A program made the position numbers and the translations under genes. Below the pieces are notes generated by a model that was given only the letters and a program-made list of their open reading frames with translations, had not been told where the DNA came from and ran no database searches. From contig PAQK01000019.1 in assembly GCA_002709665.1 (NCBI GenBank), forward strand, positions 55,005 through 96,577: a DNA stretch of 41,573 nucleotides. Reading direction: 5' to 3'. The DNA comes from Gemmatimonadota bacterium. Lineage in GTDB: Bacteria; Latescibacterota; UBA2968; GCA-2709665. Shown here one piece after another: positions 35,757 to 37,848 of this stretch (position 1 is the first letter of the stretch; each line of letters begins with the position of its first letter).

Positions 35757-36401
35757 CTACTCTTGCTGGCTGTCATCGGACAAGAGCGGCCCCAGCACTT
35801 TCCAGACATTCTCCGCAACCTTCCTATGTCCTGCCACGGTCGGATGAATGCCGTCAGCGAGATTAAATTCCTGTATACCTCCGACACCTTCGAGGAGAAA
35901 TGGGATCAGAGCCACCTTGTTTTTTGCTGCCAGCTCCGGGAAGATCTCTTTGAACTCGGAAGTGTATTCAGGACCCAGATTGGGTGGCACCTGAATCCCC
36001 GCCAGCACCACATTTACCTTGGGATACGCCTTTCGCGAGCTGTCGACGATCGCCTGCAGATTCTGCCGTGTCACCTTGAGTGGAACACCTCTAAGACCGT
36101 CATTCGCACCAAGCGCGATCACCAGGACATCTATTCTTCTTTTGAGCATCCAGTTCATCCGGCTCAGCCCGGCAGACGTCGTCTCTCCACTGATCCCTGC
36201 ATTGACTACCTCATAACCCAACCCGAGCGAATCGATCTTCGCCTGAATTACTGCAGGAAAAGCCCCCTCCGCACTCAAGCCATACCCCGAGGTCAGGCTA
36301 TCTCCCAGGAAGAGAATCGTTCTCTTCCCCGCCTTCTCCTCGGCGACCGCGATTGCAGCCACGAACAAAAAGACCAGCATCATACCCAATTTTTCTCTCA
36401 C
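35757..36401 (-). CDS. TesA-like SGNH esterase (arylesterase/lysophospholipase)
   Basis: A 214-residue exported SGNH hydrolase. A signal peptide is visible (GMMLVFLFVAAIAVA, cleaved near AVA-EE). Block I is GDSLTSGYG, Gly in NAGISGETT, block III LGANDGLRG and block V DGIHPTVAGH. This matches TesA/arylesterase, a periplasmic acyl-ester hydrolase. GTG 36401 has GGGAG 6 bases upstream; the frame is open to 36464. It converges with the permease gene across 10 bases. In E. coli tesA is divergent from ybbA; here it is convergent with ybbP at the other end. Confidence 0.93.
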   Translation of the reverse strand: MREKLGMMLVFLFVAAIAVAEEKAGKRTILFLGDSLTSGYGLSAEGAFPAVIQAKIDSLGLGYEVVNAGISGETTSAGLSRMNWMLKRRIDVLVIALGANDGLRGVPLKVTRQNLQAIVDSSRKAYPKVNVVLAGIQVPPNLGPEYTSEFKEIFPELAAKNKVALIPFLLEGVGGIQEFNLADGIHPTVAGHRKVAENVWKVLGPLLSDDSQQE

Positions 36402-36591
36402 CAGAACTCCCTTCTCAGCCTGTCTCCCTTTATCCAAATATACCACCTCCGATTCACCGATCAAGTCTACCAGTCCCTAGCCTCTGTTCCGCACCCAGTC
36501 CACCGAAGTTCGGTCCCTCATCCCAGTCCTTGTGATACCTCAAGATACCGCACCCTGGACTTGTGACTTCGGACGCAGTTGTCTTTTCCCC

Positions 36592-36620
36592 TTGTATATC
36601 CCCTAACTATTTGTTATTAT
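36592..36620 (+). promoter_or_regulatory. Strong promoter for the 69-residue gene
   Basis: TTGTAT (36592-36597), exactly 17 bases, then TATTAT (36615-36620). The start would be near 36627, with a leader of about 64 bases that contains a GGAGG-rich stretch and a final GGAGGTGAT (36682-36690) touching the ATG. Confidence 0.55.
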
Positions 36621-36690
36621 TAACTGGTCAAGGATTGACGGATAACGACCAAGGAGGGAGAAACGAAGGCTATTCTTCCTTGGAGGTGAT

Positions 36691-36900
36691 ATGTTAAGGG
36701 TGAACAACGTAGATTTGAGCCCTCAGAAACTGCTCCAGAACTCCGCTTCGCCACAGGGCCCTTTACCACCATCCACGAGCCCCCAGGGCGGTGCACAATT
36801 AGAGACCGCCGTAGGCTATAATCTAATCACCCAAACGATGAATCAGGTCAATACCGCTCAGGCCACAGGTGTTGGCGGAAGAGTTGACCTGCTCGGTTGA
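36691..36900 (+). CDS. 69-residue protein of unknown function
   Basis: A small, mostly hydrophilic protein. The N-terminal half is rich in Pro, Ser and Gln (SPQKLLQNSASPQGPLPPSTSPQGG region, residues ~10-34); the second half could form one amphipathic helix (ETAVGYNLITQTMNQVNTAQ, 38-57), followed by a Gly-rich end. No signal peptide, transmembrane segment or metal site is evident. It has a near-consensus promoter, a full-strength Shine-Dalgarno and a strong terminator within 300 bases, so it is probably a real, well-expressed single gene. I recognise no family; a loose resemblance in shape to small motility-associated proteins is not enough to assign it. Confidence 0.65.
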   Translation: MLRVNNVDLSPQKLLQNSASPQGPLPPSTSPQGGAQLETAVGYNLITQTMNQVNTAQATGVGGRVDLLG

Positions 36901-36912
36901 GCGAACCCATAC

Positions 36913-36962
36913 AAGAAAAAAAGAGAAACCGGGACGGCCAAATAGGCTGTCCCGGTTTCTCT
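36913..36962. terminator. Bidirectional terminator hairpin
   Basis: An 18-bp stem, 36922-36939 with 36945-36962, closed by an AAATA loop and only one G.U pair. On the minus strand it is followed by a T-rich run (36924-36913); on the plus strand by TCTCTGT. It can end both the 69-residue gene and the convergent propeller pseudogene. Confidence 0.85.
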
Positions 36963-37031: not shown

Positions 37032-37848
37032 TTATTCGACCGTTCTCCCAGCAACGATCGGATGACCATTGATCGCAACGGCCTCTCGCTCATATGCTTG
37101 ACCAAATCGAATGAAGTCAGCGAACTCCACAGTCTCATTCTGATCCGTATCAGCGAGAAAGTTATACCTATCATCGCCTTCAGAAGAGTCGTAGGCCTGT
37201 GCAAAGGCGATAAAATCCTCAAAATCCTGTTTCGAGGGTGTATTACCGTCCAGCTTAACGATGTAGACCGGGTTACCCTCTAGATCGGTATACTGAGGTC
37301 GACCGGTAGGCGGCTGCACCTCGACTGTAACAGTCTCGCCACAAGTGACATTGTCCAGATCAAGCGCGTCAAGTCTAAAAACAGTTGCGGAAGATCCCGT
37401 GCCGATCCAGTAGGCACCCTTTTTGTCCTGAATGATCGATGGCACACGATTGTCCAGCAGACCGTCCTCTTGGTGGTAGGTGCGCCATACGGTTCCGTCG
37501 TACCTGCTCAGCCCGTTGCGTGTCGCGAACCAGAACACGCCCGTGCGGTCCTGGTGGGATATCCCACACCCAGTTGTGTGGCAGCTCTGCCCATCGAATC
37601 GACTGACACCGCCTTGGTGGCAAACCATATATATCCAGACCGATCCTGGATGATTGAAAACACTACACCATTCGCCAGGCCATCACCGAGACCATAAGTC
37701 TGACACAGACCCGTCTCGAGACCTGCGGGCAAAGTCTTCCCCACGGTGTAGAGGTGTTCAGGTCTGAAGATTGAACAGACCCTGTCCAGGCGATTAAAGG
37801 AAGCATCGCGACCGTCAACATTGATCTGCTGCGTGGGCTATGTCCCAC
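37032..37848 (-). pseudogene. Frameshifted regulator-propeller protein with dockerin-like C-terminus
   Basis: Propeller repeats of the two-component-regulator type appear in three frames: SIIQDRSGYIWFATK (about 37625-37670), GGVSRFDGQ (about 37595), ELPHNWVWDI (about 37565-37595), then HQDRTGVFWFATRNGLSRYDG and SIIQDKKGAYWIGTG. In intact proteins these occur in one frame as ~45-residue repeats. The frame changes near 37620 and again twice near 37560-37595, the last pair being tentative. The C-terminus (37032-37300) has DFEDFIAFAQAY and DTDQNETVEFADF, an EF-hand-like calcium loop pair resembling dockerin type I. Such DF.DF tails are common on exported proteins of Latescibacterota-like genomes. 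The N-terminus is unclear; a hydrophobic stretch near 37770-37820 may be a signal remnant. Confidence 0.6.

Follow-up and report, generated by a model that had tools for sequence, protein, structure and literature searches.

Does a short gene that has its own promoter-like, ribosome-binding and terminator-like signals, and whose product fits no family that one can name, work through its protein, through its RNA, or through both? This locus raises that question within the window, by which we mean the whole 41,573-nt stretch of DNA that was analysed. Our preferred answer, drawn from sequence comparisons, is that the gene encodes a flagellum-linked small protein, which we call family A, that is probably made under predicted CsrA-FliW control, possibly from an mRNA that also titrates CsrA. 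The features that we refer to are collected in Table 1.

Table 1. Features of the family A unit and its divergent neighbour (window positions) and members of the paralogous family B (genome and contig handles).
Feature	Position	Strand	Evidence or remark
GDSL hydrolase gene, divergent neighbour, outside the unit	35757..36464	-	Pfam PF13472, 3.8e-28
-35-like element TTGTAT	36592..36597	+	TTGNA kept in 5/5 homologues; absent from consensus scan
-10-like element TATTAT	36615..36620	+	TAT kept in 5/5 homologues
Predicted CsrA-type site 1, GUC-AAGGAUU-GAC, a possible hairpin whose loop would hold ANGGAN	36627..36639	+	GTC-ANGGANN-GAC in 5/5
Predicted CsrA-type site 2, CC-AAGGAG-GG	36649..36658	+	CC-ANGGAN-GG in 5/5
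Shine-Dalgarno GGAGG	36682..36686	+	Invariant in 5/5; possible third GGA site
69-codon gene, family A	36691..36900, stop codon included	+	Homologues in 5/64 genomes of the phylum; purifying selection
3' hairpin, probable terminator	36922..36962	+	Fold in 5/5 homologues
Family B, L111	G000:C18:16721-16927
Family B, L109	G016:C418
Family B, L110	G019:C64
Family B, L112	G015:C47
Family B, L113	G020:C29

The small gene and its signals

The 69-residue frame of the sequence-only reading was confirmed. It ends in a TGA at 36898-36900, and its product begins MLRVNN and ends GVGGRVDLLG. Homologues were found in four other genomes of the phylum, with identities to the window's protein of 68% (G019), 57% (G016), 48% (G020) and 46% (G015), and the family is absent from the other 59 of the 64 genomes searched. 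When the genomes of 84,980 species were scanned, the same four homologues were the only ones to come up (the records of the window's own genome were possibly left out). Two extra rows, with E-values of 0.016 and 0.047, had an internal stop or lay inside a 390-codon frame and were read as chance. We read most of the weak matches (E about 0.01-1) in the same way, having inspected the frames of L052, L053, L054, L057, L058, L007 and L009; L057 and L058 led us to the paralogous family described below. The evidence on family A comes from five sequences only, four of which are from MAGs, and in the family A and combined A+B alignments the G020 and G015 proteins appear without their first residue, the start Met.

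A small, intergenic frame without a named family could be spurious, with only the leader or the DNA itself being conserved. In this case we regard that explanation as refuted and give it next to no chance. The frame is open in all five genomes, both ends of the protein are conserved, a paralogous family exists, and pN (0.20-0.38) is well below pS (0.62-0.87, synonymous sites being saturated) in all 10 gene pairs, which indicates purifying selection. Homologues lacking the open frame, named beforehand as the finding that would count against a protein, did not occur. From these comparisons we believe that family A is almost certainly a real gene.

That the protein has no nameable family was borne out as well. 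Searches of Pfam, NCBIfam and PDB sequences with the single protein and with family profiles gave no family match; at an E-value of 10, Pfam returned zero families for any of the five members. PHROGs gave one weak line (E 0.31) for one of the five, and a weak line to ribonuclease HII (E 0.02-0.06), seen for one of eight sequences, offered nothing usable. In the open-access literature on CsrA-FliW leaders, YjfB and Latescibacteria flagella we found no account of family A, and none linking Latescibacterota with CsrA. The N-terminal half of the protein is rich in Pro and Gln and the end follows the pattern GVGG-V-DLLG. An AlphaFold model places helices at residues 11-18 and 37-59, with a mean pLDDT of 54.6 and a pTM of 0.24, and the single likely helix proposed earlier roughly agrees with this low-confidence model. 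This small protein is probably mostly unstructured and part of the flagellar programme. Our guess is that its role is a late one, either export-linked or filament-related.

The signals around the gene fared less evenly. To call the promoter near-consensus was an overstatement, as about 8 of the 12 sigma-70 consensus positions are matched (by count) and the consensus scan found none, but the conserved letters of the two elements recur in every homologue with the same 17-nt gap (read by eye). Judging from the -10-like element, we expect the transcript to start near 36626-36628; the mRNA would be about 335 nt long. The ribosome site abutting the ATG was confirmed, the GGAGG lying within the string GGAGGTGAT that adjoins the start codon. 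The proposed 18-bp terminator stands as a strong 3' hairpin of 18 pairs, including one G-U, around a 5-nt loop. It is not listed by the + strand terminator scan because no T-run follows it in the window. In the G019 and G016 homologues the hairpin is followed by a T-run.

On one side of the unit lies the GDSL hydrolase gene, which has a homologue on the family A contig, pointing away, in all five family A genomes. Of nine non-flagellate genomes of the order that were searched, four have retained a GDSL homologue, all of them in the sister genus; the DNA stretches examined around those four homologues contained no leader motif and no family A protein end. Elsewhere in the window, at 37032-37628 on the - strand, a frame with a two-component-regulator propeller repeat opens abruptly and, judged by eye, could be what is left of a longer gene.

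Leader sites in family A and flagellin mRNAs

The window's leader is 64 nt long when counted from the start of site 1, where we expect the mRNA to begin. From GGA to GGA, sites 1 and 2 are 20-25 nt apart in all five leaders, and the GGA of site 2 is 27-29 nt from the one in the Shine-Dalgarno sequence. This last GGA is present in all five without a preceding CAN, as it would be in any GGAGG. Site 2 was counted by pattern in the five leaders because MAFFT fails to line it up. Site 1 of G020 reads AGGGAG where the other leaders have AAGGA. For comparison, PMC7652899 gives the ANGGAN hexaloop and the consensus RUACARGGAUGU as features of CsrA sites, and PMC4894983 describes a C. jejuni flaA leader in which two hairpin loops with GGA, both CANGGANG-like hexaloops, are separated by 21 nt, close to the 18-nt optimum.

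Every family A leader has exactly two CANGGA, 10 in total against a shuffle mean of 0.95, and none of 5000 sets of dinucleotide shuffles had at least two in all five leaders (the leaders being treated as independent). A stronger argument than the shuffles is that neutral sites are near saturation, at the pS values given above, yet both leader sites persist. In the DNA examined from the five genomes, two CANGGA within about 60 nt upstream were seen at the five family A starts and at no other SD-like start: four of the five were recognised as such, and among 67 other starts listed, the lone positive, L042, was the G020 family A leader itself, which leaves 0 of 66. Outside the recognised family A leaders, 38 of 30,634 sequence windows contained two CANGGA.

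Folded as an isolated piece, site 1 presents its GGA in a hairpin loop in all five genomes. In MFE folds of the full leaders the site 1 hairpin is kept in G019 and G015 and is not kept in the window, G016 and G020; the window's full-leader fold has site 2 within a stem that pairs just upstream of the GGAGG. Rfam at gathering scores gave no matches in the window, so there was none to a CsrB/RsmZ-type regulatory RNA. Taking the conserved patterns together, we consider it likely that this is a CsrA-type leader.

A comparable hairpin, built on a different stem, occurs before flagellin genes in the same genomes. We read 19 flagellin starts of the five family A genomes, and most of their leaders are without a CANGGA pair. 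One flagellin leader in each of G000, G015, G019 and G020 has GGC-AAGGAY-GCC followed by CAAGGAGG before the ATG, and L120 in G016 has the same hairpin, with a start that could not be cleanly placed. When we searched 47 genomes of the class for GGCAAGGAYGCC-gap-GGAGG-gap-ATG, 8 of the 10 matches were directly before flagellin and the reversed control had 0. With the looser pattern CAAGGA-gap-AAGGAGG-ATG there were 8 matches in the five flagellate genomes, 4 of them flagellin leaders, versus 15 in 16 non-flagellate genomes, so that the enrichment in flagellates is slight. Two MAGs, G021 and G022, have the flagellin hairpin (G021:C26:321, G021:C46:14033 and G022:C121:7664) and no detectable CsrA or FliW, which may be due to assembly gaps, or the hairpin may serve something else. 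On two contigs, at L114 (G000:C69) and L115 (G000:C54), the flagellin leader and start are identical and the flagellin scores are equal, perhaps through assembly overlap or recent duplication.

Site 1 could also be read as DNA: the palindrome GTCA-N5-TGAC at the transcript start would then be an operator for a transcription factor and not an RNA site. Its half-site spacing is kept in four of the five leaders (G019 has AGAC), and it is located where transcription is expected to begin. However, the central GGA is invariant on one strand in all five, which a palindrome need not maintain, and a second GGA site, which is not palindromic, is present in all five as well. The flagellin leaders have the loop of site 1 on another stem (GGCA-TGCC), which favours an RNA site over a DNA operator. 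Elsewhere the pattern is at chance level, with 5 occurrences in G000 and 4 in the reversed control. We therefore find an operator quite improbable. A genome-wide regulon, sought with the pattern GTCARGGANWGAC, was rejected at these same chance-level counts. One further locus, G000:C48:16565-16577 (L084), has GTCAAGGAGAGAC, with one CANGGA there, some 70 nt upstream of the start codon (ATG) for a P-loop protein of 211 residues; named by eye, this protein reads like a uridine kinase.

Of the partners that such a leader would need, CsrA is present in all five genomes, and FliW lies beside CsrA in G000, where the matches are 8e-26 for CsrA and 1.2e-36 for FliW. In G000, csrA, fliW, flgL, flgK, flgN and flgI form one run, in which csrA-fliW adjoin flgL and a sulfotransferase-like gene lies between flgL and flgK. 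The family A gene adjoins the GDSL hydrolase gene and is outside this csrA-flgKL run.

Occurrence with flagella and related small proteins

Of the order's 21 genomes (G000-G020), only G000, G015, G016, G019 and G020 have CsrA, and the same is true of flagellin. Family A is in all five of these genomes and in none of the 16 that are without both. The chance of this match would be 1 in 20,349 if the genomes were independent, and they are related. Each of the order's two families contains both states, with and without flagellin, CsrA and family A, and therefore a single split fails to explain the distribution. Over the 60 genomes searched, 28 have flagellin and 20 have CsrA, with five of each also having family A. 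Since most such genomes (23 of the 28 and 15 of the 20) are without family A, it is dispensable for flagella in general. We conclude that family A is very probably linked to flagella, a link that the sequence-only reading had missed along with the leader motifs.

Other flagellated genomes of the class have a different small protein, YjfB (YjfB_motility, PF14070), which PMC11607428 describes as a small, uncharacterized protein tied to the flagellar sigma factor. PF14070 is above cut-off in 7 of the 60 genomes (G022, G024, G025, G028, G032, G033 and G043). All seven are flagellin-positive and belong to another family of the class; no family A genome reaches the cut-off. Inside the class the two distributions are thus complementary, and all five family A genomes are flagellin-positive as well. 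Both proteins are small and flagellum-linked, with one helix towards the C-terminus and a short tail that has an invariant Asp near its end, and family A could be a diverged and shortened YjfB that has the same role as YjfB in flagellated bacteria. Unlike YjfB, family A has the Pro/Gln-rich N-terminal half and the GVGG-V-DLLG end. There is no match to PF14070 in Pfam even at an E-value of 10, and profile comparison with the YjfB proteins of the class aligns only 4-7 tail columns, with a probability of 0.26-0.58 percent. We consider a YjfB-like role doubtful, if worth keeping in mind, and we do not claim that family A is YjfB, as the sequence and profile tests failed despite the complementary distribution. 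The YjfB-type small proteins that we collected from other flagellated genomes of the class (L085-L092) are absent where family A occurs. Our YjfB alignment holds seven of these eight, as L086 is nearly identical to L085 and was omitted; L092 is below the Pfam cut-off.

When we searched with a profile of family A plus three relatives, each of the five family A genomes proved to have a diverged paralogue, family B. These relatives were the first family B members (G000, G016 and G019), which were thus in the search profile, and the G015 and G020 members were found later; the family B alignment and the B rows of the combined alignment hold three of the five, without these last two. The part common to both families is the C-terminal half, ending G-GG-D, and hhalign of family A against family B gives a probability of 90 and an E-value of 1.5e-6. 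The G020 family B frame has an in-frame TAG ahead of the conserved end. No CsrA-type leader was seen by eye in the family B upstream regions. At least three of the five family B genes are preceded by a frame with a similar ending, and we read these frames by eye as one membrane-protein family.

Proposed control and its meaning

The family A leader is like the CsrA-FliW flagellin leaders of C. jejuni flaA and B. subtilis hag in having two ANGGAN-type GGA sites about 20 nt apart with a Shine-Dalgarno sequence downstream, in the adjacent csrA and fliW genes beside flgL in the genome, and in being confined, within the order, to flagellated genomes. Unlike flaA and hag, the message encodes a 69-residue protein of no known family in a compact stand-alone unit, and CsrA binding to it is predicted. 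By analogy we infer binding and repression by CsrA, and relief by FliW, at this leader. Until the flagellar hook is complete, a CsrA dimer spanning the two GGA sites, or else site 2 and the ribosome site, would keep ribosomes off the family A mRNA. Once flagellin is exported, CsrA would be removed by FliW, and the family A protein would then be made together with flagellin.

The sequence-only reading also suggested a small-RNA role, and the leader gives that idea a concrete shape which the reading itself had not proposed. Since the leader has two conserved GGA sites, CsrA could be bound or titrated by the short mRNA, which again we infer. In its strongest form this would make the unit mainly an RNA that titrates CsrA, with the protein being secondary. 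The unit is compact, has two sites of the high-affinity type and its own promoter and terminator, and keeps a distance of 268-276 nt from motif to stop (268, 268, 268, 269 and 276 nt in the five homologues). CsrB-type RNAs carry many CsrA sites, whereas this unit has only two upstream. The protein is also clearly under purifying selection, and the paralogue is without such a leader. A partial precedent is flaA_mini, an artificial C. jejuni transcript of the flaA leader, 17 codons and a terminator, which according to PMC4894983 antagonises CsrA. It resembles family A in joining a short leader with two GGA sites, in family A putative hairpins, to a short ORF and a terminator. Unlike that engineered transcript, family A is a natural gene, and its titration of CsrA is putative. 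On balance we think it unlikely that the unit acts mainly as RNA. We are only a little more inclined towards a dual-function transcript, a tentative reading in which the mRNA would be both a CsrA target and a sponge that tunes flagellin output, with family B acquired and lost in step with flagella.

Our preferred reading remains a flagellum-linked small protein under predicted CsrA-FliW control. It adds a new small-protein family and its paralogue to the genes whose presence follows that of flagella, and it provides, for a candidate phylum, a candidate target of CsrA-FliW that is not flagellin. If the family A mRNA does titrate CsrA, the engineered flaA_mini transcript would have a counterpart in nature.
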